Assembly (NCBI GenBank): GCA_021798795.1
Contig: JAJZBR010000017.1
Coordinates: forward strand, 1 to 32,879
Source: Pseudomonadota bacterium
GTDB taxonomy: Bacteria; Pseudomonadota; Gammaproteobacteria; JAKAQQ01
Direction of reading: 5' to 3'
Length of the DNA stretch: 32,879 nucleotides
Shown: in pieces, positions 8,695-14,872 of the stretch
Layout of the letters: every line of letters starts with the position of its first letter
Numbering within the stretch: the first letter of the stretch is position 1
Notes under the pieces: model-generated
Told to the model about the DNA's origin: nothing
Seen by the model: only the letters and a program-made list of their open reading frames with translations
Database searches by the model: none
Translations under genes and position numbers: made by a program

Positions 8695-9144
8695 CTAGAG
8701 CGCAAGCCGGTAGCTCGACAGGGTGATGTCGGTCAGGTTGCCGCGTGTCACGTTGACGGAGATGAGTTTGGCGGGGGCGCCGTTCAAGGTGACGGGCGCG
8801 ACCGTGACCTGGATCGTATAGTCACTGAGGCCCGGGATCGGCTGTCCGAACTGATTTTGGGCCCCCGTGTTCGAAAGCCCGTTGTAGTCGTCGACGTCGT
8901 TGTACGTGGAGCGGCTACAGGGGGTCGGGCAGGGGAGCGGCGCGTAGGACTTGCTCTGGATCTCCTCGAGGTACGCCTGCCCGATCGCGATGGCCTGGGT
9001 TTCGGCCATGGGATTTGCGCTCGAGCCCGCCGCCGTGTCGAGTGCGAGAAAAACGGCTGTGAGCGCGATGGCGATCACGACGATCGTGATCACGAGTTCG
9101 ACCAGGCTGAATCCCTTCATCCGGCAGGGTGGGCGATCGGTCAC
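8695..9144 (-). CDS. mshD: MSHA minor prepilin MshD
   Basis: A small prepilin-like protein. The type III signal is RMKG followed by FSLVELVITIVVIAIALTAVF, with Gly at -1 and Glu at +5. The GTG at 9144 overlaps the mshC stop as GTGA and gives 149 residues with an 11-residue basic leader. The ATG at 9120 would give a three-residue leader (MKG) and 141 residues. I report the former because short overlaps are the rule in this operon. The mature domain carries two pairs of nearby cysteines (CPTPC region) likely to be disulfide-bonded. The family is MshD/PilV-like minor pilins, which join the tip or initiation complex. Confidence 0.82.
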   Translation of the reverse strand: MTDRPPCRMKGFSLVELVITIVVIAIALTAVFLALDTAAGSSANPMAETQAIAIGQAYLEEIQSKSYAPLPCPTPCSRSTYNDVDDYNGLSNTGAQNQFGQPIPGLSDYTIQVTVAPVTLNGAPAKLISVNVTRGNLTDITLSSYRLAL

Positions 9145-9662
9145 GGCGTGTGGCTCACAAAACCGGTGCCGCCATTCACCGTGAGCGTTCCCGAAAATCC
9201 TCCGCCGCTGATCGTGACGGTTTCCGTGACCGGGGTCGAACCCTTCGCATCGAAAAGGATGCTCGAAGACACGGGGCTCGTGGACTGGGAGACTCCGCTC
9301 GGTGCATTCGAGGCATAAGGCTGCCCCGTCGCGGCATTCACGACTGGAGTGGTGTAGCTCCCGCTCGTGCATCCTCCGGCCTGCTCGAGATCGTAGCCGC
9401 CCGATCCCAGGGTCACGAGGACCGGGCACTCGGATGCGATGGCCTCCTTGCGGGCGTAGCCCAAGGCGGCATCGAGACTGTCGAAGTATCCGTGCGCGCC
9501 AAAGTCCGTGAGATCGAAGAGGCGGGGGAGGATGAAGAGCGAGAGGACGGAGACGAGAATCATGATGAGGACGAGTTCGGTCAAGGTCACGCCGACCGAA
9601 AAAAAAGGGGGCGCGAGGCGCCCCCTTTGATATCCTTCAATCCGTCTGCCGCGCAACTGCAT
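9141..9662 (-). CDS. mshC: MSHA minor prepilin MshC
   Basis: A prepilin-like protein of about 173 residues. The membrane segment is VTLTELVLIMILVSVLSLFI, preceded by Gly (-1) and with Glu at +5, so peptidase processing is plausible. The +1 residue is Val rather than the usual Phe or Met. The globular part contains FDSLDAALGYARKEAIASECPV, typical of MshC, in which pilin assembly residues precede a helix, and a Cys pair (about residues 92 and 110). The start is uncertain. ATG at 9662 gives a 24-residue leader, and the intrinsic-terminator hairpin at 9599-9628 falls inside this leader's coding sequence. No nearer start keeps the cleavage Gly. It lies 25 bases after mshA. Confidence 0.78.
   Translation of the reverse strand: MQLRGRRIEGYQRGRLAPPFFSVGVTLTELVLIMILVSVLSLFILPRLFDLTDFGAHGYFDSLDAALGYARKEAIASECPVLVTLGSGGYDLEQAGGCTSGSYTTPVVNAATGQPYASNAPSGVSQSTSPVSSSILFDAKGSTPVTETVTISGGGFSGTLTVNGGTGFVSHTP
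9599..9628 (-). terminator. Intrinsic terminator or attenuator between mshA and the minor pilin genes
   Basis: On the minus strand a perfect 11-bp stem (AAAGGGGGCGC, loop CTC, GCGCCCCCTTT) is followed directly by T residues, eight in the run at 9606-9599. Stem, loop and T-tract are textbook rho-independent terminator elements. It lies 60-90 bases after the mshA stop and inside the predicted leader coding region of mshC. Since the genes beyond are clearly intact, it is best read as a partial terminator that lets mshA be made in excess over mshC-D-O-P-Q. Confidence 0.85.
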
Positions 9663-9687
9663 GGCGGCCCGCTTTCCCTCTACCGAA

Positions 9688-10092
9688 TCAGGGTGCGATG
9701 GCGGCGATGACCTGGGCACTTGTTACGACGCTCGTCGAGACCTGCGTGATGGTGCAGGGATAAGCCGTGCCCGCGGTTGCCCCGACCGTACCGGAAACGG
9801 TGTACTGGCTCGCATCCAGGGGTTGCTGCAGAATGCCCCCCGGCGGTCCGCTTAGAATCGTGGCGCACGCTGCACTCACGGTCGAGACGGCGCTCGGGTT
9901 GCCGGCTACGGCACCTGCATAGTTGATCGCGCTGGCCGATTCGACTGCACCTACCACGCCCGCCAAGGCTGCGGTGTCGGCTTGGGTGCTGAGATTGATG
10001 AACTTCGGAATCGCGACTGCGGCCAGAATGCCGAGAATGACGATCACCATGACGAGTTCGATGAGCGTAAATCCAGACTGCTCTCTTTTCAT
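9688..10092 (-). CDS. mshA: MSHA major pilin MshA
   Basis: A 134-residue type IV pilin. The short leader MKREQSG is cleaved before FTLIELVMVIVILGILAAVA, with Gly at -1, Phe at +1 and Glu at +5, the canonical type IVa signal. The alpha-1 helix continues through IPKFINLSTQADTAALAGVVGAVESA, matching MshA. Cys76 and Cys113 are placed to form the C-terminal disulfide loop. It is the shaft subunit of a mannose-sensitive-haemagglutinin-type pilus, used for surface attachment and biofilm initiation in Vibrio and Shewanella. A GAGG Shine-Dalgarno lies about 11 bases before the ATG. Transcription probably starts in the 171-base gap upstream, separately from the kamA cassette. A strong terminator follows the gene. 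Confidence 0.94.
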   Translation of the reverse strand: MKREQSGFTLIELVMVIVILGILAAVAIPKFINLSTQADTAALAGVVGAVESASAINYAGAVAGNPSAVSTVSAACATILSGPPGGILQQPLDASQYTVSGTVGATAGTAYPCTITQVSTSVVTSAQVIAAIAP

Positions 10093-10263: not shown

Positions 10264-10755
10264 TCAAGACGGTTTGGCGATGAGATCCCGCGCATAGACG
10301 ATTTTATCGTCCCCAGGCCGGTAAAAGCCCGGAAGCTTTGCAATCTCCCGAAATCCGTTGCGCCCGTAAAACGCCCGGGTCGGCTCATAAAGCGGCTGCG
10401 AGGAGGTTTCCGCATAAAGGAGTCGCCCTCCTGACCGGATCGCCTCCTCAGCCGCGGTTTCAACGAGGAGCCGGCCAAGCCCCTGCCCCTGACTGAGCGG
10501 GTGTACCGCGATCCAGTAGAGGTCGAAACTCCCCTCCGTTCCGGCGATGGGTCCGTAACAGGCGAATCCAGCCAATGATCCATCGGGGCCGAACGCGCGC
10601 ATGAAGTGGTAACCGGTGCGGAGGGCACCCTGCGCAAGATTCTGCTCCATGAGCTCGACTGCGATCGCAACCTCCTCAGCGCGGAAGAATCCCGTCGCGC
10701 GGACGATTTCGATCATGGGAGAGACGTCCTCTGGGACAAGTCCTTTGCGGATCAC
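10264..10755 (-). CDS. GNAT-family N-acetyltransferase of the kamA cassette
   Basis: A 163-residue GNAT acetyltransferase. Motif A with the acetyl-CoA pyrophosphate-binding loop is LYWIAVHPLSQGQGLGRLLV. It is followed by the alpha-4/beta-5 region (RLLYAETSS) and the typical C-terminal AFYGRNGFREIAKLPGFY. No membrane segment is present. GTG at 10755 overlaps the stop of the ATP-grasp gene as GTGA. Last of four coupled genes, it most likely acetylates the product, or a precursor, made by KamA and the ATP-grasp ligases. AblB, which acetylates beta-lysine in methanogens and some bacteria, is a GNAT enzyme partnered with a lysine 2,3-aminomutase. This protein is shorter than AblB, and I cannot claim orthology. 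Protein acetylation is an alternative. Confidence 0.85.
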   Translation of the reverse strand: MIRKGLVPEDVSPMIEIVRATGFFRAEEVAIAVELMEQNLAQGALRTGYHFMRAFGPDGSLAGFACYGPIAGTEGSFDLYWIAVHPLSQGQGLGRLLVETAAEEAIRSGGRLLYAETSSQPLYEPTRAFYGRNGFREIAKLPGFYRPGDDKIVYARDLIAKPS

Positions 10756-11765
10756 CTCCGGTTCACCTCGCGCAAGGGTTCATGGGGGGCGGCGTGCTTT
10801 GAATACCCGGCGCAGGCGAGGATTTGTGCGAGAAGTCCCGGGTAATCCCAACCCGCCTGAAATGCGGCCTTTGCGAACCCCGCCAGAGGGTCGAGCGTGG
10901 GGTTCGGGTTGAGATCGATGACCTGGGGCCCACCGTCCGGGCCCACCCGAAAATCGATGCGGGCATAGCCTTTGAGGCCGAAGGCGGAAAAAATCTGACG
11001 CGCGAGCGCGGCCAGCGTTACGAGAAGGATCTCATCGGATCCTTCCGCCTTGGGGAAGTGCCGGATGGTTTTGGCGAAGCGAGGGCTTTGAGTGTCCCAT
11101 TTAGCGGCGTGATCGACGATCTTCGGCATCCCATCCGGCCAGTCCATGAACTGGATCTCGGCGGGAGGCAAGACCAGGGGTTGCCCAACCGGGCTTTCGA
11201 TGACCGACAGGTTGAACTCCCGCCCCTCGATATAGGGCTCGGCAAAAAACGCCGTCCGGTACCGGCTGGATTTCTGCCGGACGAGATCCTCTGCTTCGGC
11301 CAGGGTTTCAACCCGGGCGCCCGGATCGAGCCCGAGCGAGGCGTGCTGATGGCGTGCCTTGACCAGAAACGAGCCCTCGTGATTGTTGGCATCCGGGGTC
11401 GGGATGCCAGCTTGGATCAGGACGTGTTTGAGTGCGAGTTTGTCGTCGGCGAGAGCGAGGACGTGCGGGGGATTGCCCGTGTAGGGCAGGGTGAGGGACT
11501 CGAGAAGTGCGGGCACGCAAGCGGCCAGCCGATCCCTGCCATCGAGTCCCTCAACCAGGTTGAAAACGAGAGCTGGGGGATCCCGCTCGAGTTCGCGTCG
11601 CATCCGGCCGAGATCAAGATCGGCAGAGCTCATCCGCATCGGATGACCCCGCTCGGCGAGTATGCGTTTGATTCCCTCCGCCACCTCCAGATTTTCAAGA
11701 TCCTCGATCGCCTGGCTCCCTCCCGGGGGGATGCCATGCAGGATGAGGATGGTCCCCTCCCTCAC
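10752..11765 (-). CDS. ATP-grasp ligase, second copy of the kamA cassette
   Basis: A 337-residue ATP-grasp enzyme distantly related to D-Ala-D-Ala ligase, joining a carboxylate to an amine through an acylphosphate. Nucleotide-binding elements are SFLVKAR (Lys136) and AFFAEPYIEGREFNLSVIE (Glu176). Metal ligands are Asp271 in ARIDFRV and Asp284/Asn286 in VIDLNPNPTLDPLAG; the glutamate usual at the middle position is replaced by Asp. The small loop that reads EGSS in Ddl is here HQHASLGLD, so the substrate differs from Ddl and probably from its neighbour. GTG at 11765 overlaps the preceding stop as GTGA. No signal peptide is present. Its substrate is unknown, and use of beta-lysine or a beta-lysyl conjugate is inferred only from context. 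Confidence 0.85.
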   Translation of the reverse strand: MREGTILILHGIPPGGSQAIEDLENLEVAEGIKRILAERGHPMRMSSADLDLGRMRRELERDPPALVFNLVEGLDGRDRLAACVPALLESLTLPYTGNPPHVLALADDKLALKHVLIQAGIPTPDANNHEGSFLVKARHQHASLGLDPGARVETLAEAEDLVRQKSSRYRTAFFAEPYIEGREFNLSVIESPVGQPLVLPPAEIQFMDWPDGMPKIVDHAAKWDTQSPRFAKTIRHFPKAEGSDEILLVTLAALARQIFSAFGLKGYARIDFRVGPDGGPQVIDLNPNPTLDPLAGFAKAAFQAGWDYPGLLAQILACAGYSKHAAPHEPLREVNRR

Positions 11766-12772
11766 GCGGGCTGAACCGGGAGCGCTTCGTTTGGGGCCCG
11801 ATGGATTCGGGCGAGCGCGGATTCCACGATCGCCCGGATCAGGTCGGCATAAGACCAACCCCGGGCGCGGGCCAGAATCACGAGATCCGAACGCACCGGG
11901 TGCAGTCCGGCCAGGGGGTTGATCTCAAGAAAACTGGGCTGGCCCTCTCGATCGAGCCGGATATCGACGCGGCTCGCATCCAGGCAGTTGAGAGCCCGGT
12001 GCGCCCTGAGAGCGAGGTCGGATGCCTGGGTGGCCCGCTCGTCCTCGGCAAGGAGGTAGTCGATGCGCAGGTCATATTCCTCCTTGGCCCGGTATCCGTA
12101 GGCCGCTTGGTCCTCTGATGTGCGGCCCTTAATCTCGAGCACTCCGAGCGGATAGGCCGCCTGCCCGCTTCCCAAGATCCCCACGGTGAACTCGGCTCCG
12201 GGCAGGTAGGGTTCGACCAGGATGGGACCTGCATACCAGGTGCGCAGGCGGGAGACCAGACGGTCGAGCTCGCCTCGGTCGGCGACTCTCGATTCTTCGT
12301 CGATCCCCATCCCCGATCCTTCGGCATCCGGTTTCACGAAAAGCGGATAGCCTATGGGGATCGCAATCGGCGCCGCCTGCTCCCGGATCACGATAAAGGG
12401 AGCAGTCGTGACGCCGAGATCGCCCAGGATCGTCTTCGTGACCGATTTGTGGAGTGCCATGGCAAGGGTGAGCGGGCCCGAGAACGTATAGGGGATCCCG
12501 AACGCATCGAGAAGAGCTGGCACCTGCGATTCGCGTGCGGTTCCCCGGAGACCCTCGGCCAGATTGAAGACGAGATCGAAGGATGCGCCTCCGCCAAGGG
12601 CTCGGACGAGCTCCCGGATCCCACCGATCGGGCAGATCGTGTGACCCAAGGCGGAGAGTGCCTCCGCGATGGCATCGATCGTCTCGGGCCGGTCGAACTC
12701 GGCCGTCTCTTCTTCGCTCAGCCCCGATTCGAGATAGGGTTCCCGAAGATCATAGGTCAGGCCGATGCGCAT
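11762..12772 (-). CDS. ATP-grasp ligase (D-Ala-D-Ala ligase-like), first copy of the kamA cassette
   Basis: A 336-residue ATP-grasp enzyme. The N-terminal segment MRIGLTYDLREPYL is followed by a Rossmann-like domain containing DLVFNLAEGL. The ATP-grasp core has PLFVKPDAEGSGMGI (Lys147 and the glycine loop), ILVEPYLPGAEFTVGILG (Glu187), and metal ligands Asp270, Glu283 and Asn285 in RVDIRLD and FLEINPLAGL. All catalytic elements look intact. It is not a housekeeping Ddl: the omega-loop region reads YGYRAKEEYDLRIDYL, and the neighbours are not cell-wall genes. I prefer ATG at 12772, a 16-base overlap with kamA, on family resemblance. An upstream ATG at 12799 has a fair Shine-Dalgarno (AAGGGA) and would add nine residues. 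Confidence 0.85.
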   Translation of the reverse strand: MRIGLTYDLREPYLESGLSEEETAEFDRPETIDAIAEALSALGHTICPIGGIRELVRALGGGASFDLVFNLAEGLRGTARESQVPALLDAFGIPYTFSGPLTLAMALHKSVTKTILGDLGVTTAPFIVIREQAAPIAIPIGYPLFVKPDAEGSGMGIDEESRVADRGELDRLVSRLRTWYAGPILVEPYLPGAEFTVGILGSGQAAYPLGVLEIKGRTSEDQAAYGYRAKEEYDLRIDYLLAEDERATQASDLALRAHRALNCLDASRVDIRLDREGQPSFLEINPLAGLHPVRSDLVILARARGWSYADLIRAIVESALARIHRAPNEALPVQPA

Positions 12773-14124
12773 GGATCGATGGAGGCAATCTTCCCGCATC
12801 CGACCGTCCCTTCGGGATCGGGATAGCGATAGAGGTCCCCCGCGTAGTTCCGAAGCAGGAGATCATCACCGATCCGTCCCGCCACGTAATCGGGCAGGAG
12901 GGGGATCTTGCCGCCTCCGCCCGGAGCGTCCACGACGAAGGTCGGCACCGCATATCCGGTCGTGTGGCCACGCAGACCCTGAATGATCTCAAGTCCTTTC
13001 GCGACCGGCGTCCGGAAATGGGACGAGCCCGCGATCGGGTCGCATTGATAGAGGTAGTAGGGTTTGACCCGGATCTTGAGCAACCCCTGCATGAGGGTTT
13101 TCTGGGTGGGCACATCATCGTTCACACCCTTGAGGAGAACGGTCTGACTGCCGAGCGGGAGTCCGGCATCGGCGAGACGCCCGCACGCTTCCGCGACCTC
13201 GGGAGTGAGTTCATCGGGGTGGATGAAGTGGATGCTCATCCAGAGCGGGTGATACTTCTTGAGCAGACGGGTGAGCCTGGGGGTGATGCGCTGGGGCAGG
13301 ACGGCCGGATTCTTGGTACCGATGCGGAGGAACTCGACGTGCGGGATCCGGCGCAGGCGAGAGAGAAGCCAGTCCAGACGTTCGTCATCGAGGCTCAGTG
13401 GATCCCCTCCCGACAGGAGGACATCCCGGATGCTCGGGGTGGATTCGATATAGGCGAGCGCCGCCTCGAGCTGGTGCTTTTTGAGGCTCCCTTCTCCGCT
13501 CGCGCCAACGAGGCGTGCGCGCGTGCAATATCGGCAGTAGACCGCGCAGAGCCCGGTGACGAGAAAAAGTACCCGGTCAGGGTATCGGTGCACAAGTCCT
13601 GGTACCGGGCTCGTCGCATCCTCGCCGAGCGGATCCAGTGCTTCGCCCGCCGTGTGGGCATACTCCTCAAGCACGGGTACGACCGTCCGGCGGAGCGGCT
13701 GACTGCTGTCTTCGGGGTCGAGGAGGCTCGCGTAGTAGGGCGTGATGCCGAAGGGCAGCGGCCCCACATGACGCTCGATCGCGGCCTTCTCCTCAGGGGA
13801 GAGTTGGAGCAGGCGTTCGAGTTCTTGGGCTGATTTGATCCGGTGGCGCTGCTGCCAGCGCCAGTCATTCCAGTCGGATTGGGAAGCTTCGGGATAGTGG
13901 CGGAGCCGGAACGCTTGGGACTTTGGGCTCGTGACGAATCGGGGGCGGTAGGGTGCGGGGCGGGGGAAGGTGGGTTGGGTTCTTGGGCGTTGGGGAATCA
14001 GGGGGGGGGGTAGAGGGACGCGGATCTCGTAGGAGGATCCAAAGGAGGCGTCCGGGGCGGAAACCGCCGAGGCTTCAAGCGGTCCGGGAGGTTCGGGATC
14101 TTCGGTCTCGGGACTGTCTTGCAT
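12757..14124 (-). CDS. kamA: L-lysine 2,3-aminomutase (radical SAM, PLP)
   Basis: A 455-residue enzyme that interconverts L-lysine and L-beta-lysine. The radical-SAM cluster motif is CAVYCRYC (Cys193, Cys197, Cys200). VLLSGGD and IHFIHPDE follow. The PLP lysine is Lys406 in DAPGGGGK, and the two aspartates that bind the substrate epsilon-amino group in Clostridium KamA are present as Asp362 (YQCDP) and Asp399. Their spacing to the lysine matches the clostridial enzyme (293, 330, 337) exactly, so a lysine substrate is well supported. It is longer than the short EF-P-type EpmB and has a proline-rich extension of about 68 residues at the N-terminus containing a C10 tract. ATG at 14124 follows a GGAG Shine-Dalgarno at eight bases. 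First gene of a four-gene operon. Confidence 0.95.
   Translation of the reverse strand: MQDSPETEDPEPPGPLEASAVSAPDASFGSSYEIRVPLPPPLIPQRPRTQPTFPRPAPYRPRFVTSPKSQAFRLRHYPEASQSDWNDWRWQQRHRIKSAQELERLLQLSPEEKAAIERHVGPLPFGITPYYASLLDPEDSSQPLRRTVVPVLEEYAHTAGEALDPLGEDATSPVPGLVHRYPDRVLFLVTGLCAVYCRYCTRARLVGASGEGSLKKHQLEAALAYIESTPSIRDVLLSGGDPLSLDDERLDWLLSRLRRIPHVEFLRIGTKNPAVLPQRITPRLTRLLKKYHPLWMSIHFIHPDELTPEVAEACGRLADAGLPLGSQTVLLKGVNDDVPTQKTLMQGLLKIRVKPYYLYQCDPIAGSSHFRTPVAKGLEIIQGLRGHTTGYAVPTFVVDAPGGGGKIPLLPDYVAGRIGDDLLLRNYAGDLYRYPDPEGTVGCGKIASIDPCASA
14001..14010. repeat. Ten-base homopolymer in the 5' part of kamA
   Basis: Ten consecutive G on the plus strand (C10 in the coding strand) encode Pro39-Pro41 and the first base of Leu42. 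I see no ATG, GTG or TTG in frame between this tract and the conserved core, which starts near Trp85. A slip by one base would therefore abolish KamA and probably reduce translation of the coupled downstream genes. Confidence 0.65.
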
Positions 14125-14344: not shown

Positions 14345-14872
14345 TCAAAGCCTGTGGTTCCAGGTGTAGCGGTTGAGTTGGACGAGCTCGATCCCGGCGA
14401 GATCGTCCGGGGCATGAGCCCGCCCCCGGAAGACCGGTTCCAGCCGGAAACGGATCCGTTTGCGTCCGGGCAGGGGCGAGACGAAGTGGCTTTTGAAACG
14501 GACGACATAGACCAGGGTGCGCCTGCTCCGGTTGAAATACCAGGAACCGCCAGGTATCCGGTGGCGCCCGGGGTGGGCGAAGCTGCCCACGTAGTTCGCA
14601 GGCGGGGTGGCCAGGAACCGTACCGGATTTGCGCCGGCCAGGCGTGCGATGGCAGCGAGTGGTGCGCCGCGGGCGATCTGGGCTGCGACCGCGATCCCGA
14701 GCGCACTTTCGATGGCACCCCGGACTTCAACCACAGCGGTTTTCTCAGCCGCGATCCGGAGTGGCCAGATCCGGTCGATCGCGACGCGGATGAAAATCGC
14801 GATCAGGATCACGACGATCACGAGCTCAAGGAGACTCACGCTCCGGACGCGCTCTGTGAGCCGATCGGTCAT
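14345..14872 (-). CDS. mshF: MshF/MshB-like prepilin-like protein
   Basis: A 175-residue protein at the position of MshF, after MshG. The N-terminus MTDRLTERVRS is followed by VSLLELVIVVILIAIFIRVAI, a type IV pilin-like hydrophobic helix with Glu at +5. The residue at -1 would be Ser instead of Gly, so cleavage by prepilin peptidase is doubtful. The globular part ends in RIPGGSWYFNRSRRTLVYVVRF, the PG.WYF....LVYRV pattern I associate with MshF. No separate MshB gene follows, so this protein may cover both roles. It begins 43 bases after mshG. Its stop is followed by the gap holding the kamA promoter. Confidence 0.7.
   Translation of the reverse strand: MTDRLTERVRSVSLLELVIVVILIAIFIRVAIDRIWPLRIAAEKTAVVEVRGAIESALGIAVAAQIARGAPLAAIARLAGANPVRFLATPPANYVGSFAHPGRHRIPGGSWYFNRSRRTLVYVVRFKSHFVSPLPGRKRIRFRLEPVFRGRAHAPDDLAGIELVQLNRYTWNHRL

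Follow-up and report, generated by a model that had tools for sequence, protein, structure and literature searches.

Our analysis supports a model in which a hairpin inside the first codons of the minor pilin gene mshC acts as an intrinsic terminator for the major pilin gene, mshA, within an mshA-mshC-mshD operon. We consider it probable that read-through of this terminator feeds the minor pilins, and that its strength, rather than a switch, sets the ratio between the pilins. Judged by sequence, the hairpin and the T tract behind it are a predicted intrinsic terminator of a known kind that lies in an unusual position, among the leader codons of mshC. The window, by which we mean the whole 32,879-nucleotide stretch of DNA analysed here, is contig C96 of a 1.76-Mb assembly that is about 80% complete.

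The MSHA locus and the mshA-mshC junction

The minus strand of the window carries an MSHA-type type IVa pilus locus. Downstream of mshA lie mshC, an mshD-like pilin gene and a DUF6701 (MshQ-like) gene, and further upstream are T2SSF, MshE-type ATPase, AAA protein, secretin and PilN-like genes. The mshA, mshC and mshD pilins with DUF6701, and an MshE ATPase, a secretin and T2SSF nearby, are the gene content of an MSHA-type IVa pilus operon. Orthologues of mshA in the same family are 70-84% identical. From the protein families we infer that mshA is abundant and that mshC and mshD are, by comparison, of low abundance. The features of the junction, listed from upstream to downstream, are as follows.

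9688..10092, minus strand: mshA, major pilin, 134 aa, MKREQSG^FTLIELV (N_methyl Pfam match, 5.5e-9)
9676..9680, minus strand: GAGGG, possible mshC Shine-Dalgarno sequence, 13 nt before the ATG (duplex -6.3 kcal/mol)
9141..9662, minus strand: mshC, minor pilin prepilin, 173 aa including the leader (GspH Pfam match, 2.2e-7)
9594..9662, minus strand: mshC leader codons M1-V23 (MQLRGRRIEGYQRGRLAPPFFSV), 69 nt (by translation; of equal length and in open frame in the same-genus genome G002)
9604..9628, minus strand: predicted terminator hairpin, perfect 11-bp stem and 3-nt loop, mshC codons 12-20 (by sequence and fold, with arms conserved in G002)
9599..9606, minus strand: T8 tract (the U tract of the RNA), encoding FF of the leader; predicted RNA 3' end at about 9599-9601 (by sequence)
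8698..9123, minus strand: mshD-like minor pilin, the next gene of the operon (N_methyl match)

The 94 bases between the mshA stop codon (9690-9688) and mature mshC hold the mshC ATG (9662-9660), the hairpin and the T8 tract. Read 5' to 3' on the minus strand, the hairpin (9628-9604) is AAAGGGGGCGC-CTC-GCGCCCCCTTT, and three T of the tract double as the foot of the stem, which leaves five unpaired. The same bases serve as codons: in the mshC leader GGGGGCGC...GCGCCCCCTTTTTTTT specifies RGRLAPPFF, and hairpin and tract together encode QRGRLAPPFF. A first-pass annotation of this DNA had described a perfect 11-bp stem followed by eight T between mshA and mature mshC, and both are present (9628-9604 and 9606-9599). 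The interval it gave, 9599-9662, is correct for the leader reading frame plus the terminator and too wide for the hairpin itself, 9662 being the start codon.

From ATG 9662 the prepilin reads MQLRGRRIEGYQRGRLAPPFFSV^GVTLTELV, and its -1 Gly (9593-9591) is invariant across five family members. The annotation had taken the leader to be translated straight through the hairpin, and the predicted frame does run from ATG 9662 to this glycine with no stop, as does that of G002. It had also warned that a later start would forfeit the cleavage glycine, and rightly so: the stretch from the hairpin to the -1 Gly contains no ATG, GTG or TTG start codon of mshC, and the next in-frame start is a GTG immediately past that glycine. 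A start 3' of the hairpin was therefore rejected, and if a processable prepilin is made, the leader must be translated through the hairpin. The mshC start codon sits upstream of the hairpin, and this is what places the terminator inside the mshC coding sequence. An upstream GTG start at 9719 was rejected as well, being absent from G002 and having a poor site. In G002 the mshC ATG occupies the identical offset, 25 nt past the mshA stop, with a weak Shine-Dalgarno duplex (-2.4); neither genome offers mshC a ribosome-binding site that is both strong and well spaced.

Two observations concern the surroundings of mshA. At 10264-14124 on the minus strand, genes for a GNAT acetyltransferase, a pair of D-Ala-D-Ala-ligase-like ATP-grasp proteins and a radical SAM protein resembling lysine-2,3-aminomutase separate mshA from a pilin-like match further upstream (14594-14839). 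The spacing from the pilin to mshA is alike in G001, G002 and G004, and the block suggests a conserved insertion in the MSHA locus; that it performs beta-lysine chemistry is a guess. In another genome (G008, locus L005), the mshA orthologue is followed by an apparent frame of the dihydrodipicolinate reductase type, identified by eye, and not by mshC.

The hairpin and T tract across genomes

A GC-rich hairpin with a directly adjoining T tract on the coding strand is the form of an intrinsic (Rho-independent) terminator, and the window has both. The RNA fold of a 36-nt piece reaches -21.0 kcal/mol (z = -5.3), and 0 of 200 shuffles did as well. In 20 Mb of dinucleotide-matched random sequence, both strands counted, we met just one perfect stem that had 9 bp or more and a directly adjoining T5, and no 11-bp stem of this kind. 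Within 313 kb of the window genome there is a single other hairpin of at least 9 bp with a five-T tail. The terminator score is strongly positive in the window. A bidirectional terminator was rejected, the plus strand having no T tract past the stem, and no known RNA families were found in the window.

Same-genus comparison drew on one other genome with an mshC junction, G002, two genomes in all; in G001, the third genus member, the contig ends inside mshA and mshC was not found in the genome. The G002 junction has the same 94-base length, and its hairpin also lies inside the mshC leader frame. The 9-bp arms are identical at 18/18 positions between the two genomes, against 1/5 for the loop and 33/65 (51%) for the remainder (Fisher p = 5e-5, arms vs remainder). 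In the hairpin, 6/6 codons for identical residues are kept in G002, vs 68% in mature mshC, too few sites to be decisive, which makes the nucleotide comparison between arms and remainder the stronger evidence. The T tract of G002 is broken (TTTTCTTT) and its terminator score is weaker than that of the window. In the sister genus (G006 and G004), leaders of the RGG...PSPF type keep a G run and a C run, lack a T tract and score negative as terminators; a stable hairpin lacking a T tract stays at the junction. Another genome, G003, has a plain basic mshC leader and a large hairpin, also lacking a T tract, upstream of the ATG.

These alignments suggest that the genus has kept the hairpin arms, and that terminator function is restricted to this genus when set against the sister genus. 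The first-pass annotation had asked whether related loci conserve the hairpin: the arms are conserved in G002, and the T tract is weaker there and absent from the sister genus. With its tract broken in G002 and missing from the sister genus, the terminator is dispensable for the operon. Both genus genomes also fold a hairpin around the mshC ATG, in registers that differ, and we make no claim for a conserved start-codon hairpin. In G004 (locus L035) no in-frame mshC ATG, GTG or TTG follows the mshA stop, the ATG being out of frame by one base across a G6 run; since coverage of this contig is 3.2x, we treat the frame break as a probable assembly error.

MSHA loci were sampled from genomes of the class and from named genomes, and a pilin gene directly upstream of mshC was required. 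By one strict rule, an intrinsic terminator is predicted at 14/47 mshA-mshC junctions, vs 0.35 expected from dinucleotide shuffles, and 33/47 have none. The identical rule found 0/52 at later pilin-pilin junctions of these loci (Fisher p = 9e-6), controls that may be shorter than the mshA-mshC junctions. The terminator-bearing junctions (L071-L073, L075, L086, L090, L092, L126, L128, L141 and L151, with the window, G002 and L135) span many families, and outside the genus their sequences are mutually unrelated. In the other MSHA loci the hairpin mostly precedes the mshC ATG, sometimes by a few bases only, whereas in the window the start codon comes first. The terminator overlaps the leader frame in the window and in G002, and perhaps also in G340 (L135). 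Since the sister genus lost the T tract and the terminators of other loci mostly precede the mshC start, the leader overlap is not the conserved element. Terminators past the major pilin in diverse MSHA loci, and not at later junctions, suggest a general and simple means of keeping minor pilins scarce. Our literature search found no usable description of an mshA terminator.

Individual junctions vary. That of L135, AAACCGGCACATGCCGGTTTTTC, has a weaker 8-bp terminator-like hairpin and three in-frame ATGs, one of which lies within the loop and is a possible mshC start. Two Janthinobacterium loci from cultured relatives (L058 and L059) have an mshC frame with only TTG starts and a terminator-like hairpin with T6 inside that open frame, which the strict rule missed in L058.

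Proposed partial termination and its rivals

We envision that most RNA polymerases transcribing mshA would be released at the T8 tract, and that the minority reading through would supply minor pilin mRNA at a low level. The ratio of the pilins would then be fixed by the strength of hairpin and tract, with no switch involved. The order of the genes, mshA and then mshC and mshD on one strand, is that of a terminator setting stoichiometry within an operon, and termination in the cell, partial read-through and an effect on the pilin ratio are all probable. In the competence pilus of V. cholerae the ratio of minor to major pilin matters for dynamics (PMC13249403). The leader peptide, which is cut off in any case, would tolerate residues dictated by the hairpin. 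That the terminator overlaps the minor pilin's leader codons in this genus is an unusual arrangement, and it would cost one non-stop mRNA per termination: terminated transcripts would include the mshC ATG with about 21 codons and no stop, and ribosomes starting on them would need rescue by tmRNA, the gene for which is present in the window genome. A weak or distant mshC ribosome-binding site would presumably limit this cost.

Several other explanations account for parts of the evidence. The hairpin could act mainly as a 3' barrier shielding mshA mRNA, or as a site of selective RNA processing and stabilisation (SRPS), so that decay more than termination sets the ratio. SRPS stem-loops are reported to set operon stoichiometry in clostridia (PMC8219983), and the stable hairpin of the sister-genus junction and the large one of G003, neither of which has a T tract, would suit such a role. 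A hairpin that served stability alone would not require a T tract, however, whereas the T8 of the window makes a canonical intrinsic terminator and T-tract terminators recur in other MSHA loci; we regard a barrier or processing site as unlikely. The T8 within coding sequence also raises phase variation, in which slippage in this tract or in the G and C runs would break the prepilin frame by one base and alter the U tract, and the frame break across G6 in G004 would fit. Yet G002 has no long T run (TTTTCTTT) and an assembly error is the likelier source of the G004 break, which leaves phase variation very improbable.

Equally remote in our view is a hairpin that arose from a run of basic and then proline codons and plays no part in transcription. 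The sister-genus leaders, with their G and C runs and no T tract, are what favours it. Against it stand the conservation of the arms amid a diverged loop and surround and the recurrence of terminators of unrelated sequence at the mshA-mshC junction, and the counts in random sequence and in 313 kb of the genome led us to reject a chance origin.

Leader translation and comparison with known systems

The first-pass annotation had proposed an attenuator, in which a ribosome translating the leader could keep the hairpin from forming and termination might depend on mshC translation. Spelled out, the ribosome would cover the 5' arm, block the hairpin and let transcription continue, so that the supply of minor pilins would track mshC translation. 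A terminator between major and minor pilin, with a plausible part in setting their ratio, survives from this proposal; dependence on mshC translation is not supported by the geometry, in which the stem begins 59 nt past the mshA stop and 31 nt past the mshC ATG. The predicted hairpin does lie wholly within the translated leader frame in both genus genomes, ribosome-blocked terminators are known upstream of pilus genes (S. gallolyticus pil1, PMC3894217), and the 25 nt from the mshA stop to the mshC ATG would permit termination-reinitiation. In E. coli, however, a terminator escapes repression by a ribosome at a stop codon once the gap exceeds about 27-30 nt, which puts a ribosome at the mshA stop too far away, and in the W48 construct, with its terminator 30 bp past the AUG, translation reduced termination efficiency by only about 10%, since initiation lags behind the passing polymerase (PMC4824070). 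By these thresholds, which come from one terminator in E. coli and could differ in the window organism, a ribosome would not reach the 5' arm in time. The mshC ribosome-binding site looks poorly spaced or weak, and for translation to control a terminator this near a start codon, a dedicated pause of the pyrBI kind would be required. We therefore find such an attenuator unlikely. A more active form, in which a pause or mshA-to-mshC coupling ties mshA termination to leader translation and the start region senses ribosome supply to set the ratio, is likewise quite doubtful.

We thus favor a partial terminator of fixed strength, and four systems place it among known cases. W48 has nearly the geometry of the window, with a terminator 30 bp past the AUG in a downstream reading frame behind another gene, but is artificial and uses tR2 of lambda; its upstream expression fell by about half, which the authors attribute to non-stop mRNA decay (PMC4824070). 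At the E. coli pyrBI attenuator a reading frame is also translated through the terminator hairpin, but pause sites of its own hold the polymerase for the ribosome (discussed in PMC4824070). In pil1 of Streptococcus gallolyticus, a terminator stands ahead of pilus genes and a leader reading frame can enter or cross it; that frame, which stands ahead of the entire operon and contains GCAGA repeats, encodes a distinct, phase-variable leader peptide, and pil1 relies on a long leader with a decisive stop-codon position (PMC3894217). The window has no such design, and its overlapping frame is the minor pilin itself, starting only 31 nt before the stem. The ABC importer operons of Ruminiclostridium cellulolyticum, in which internal terminators past the abundant component set stoichiometry, share with our model a stem-loop past the gene for that component and expression of the remainder by read-through (PMC9045158). 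Their loops are intergenic, whereas the window terminator, for which we propose the same function, extends over leader codons of the gene that follows.
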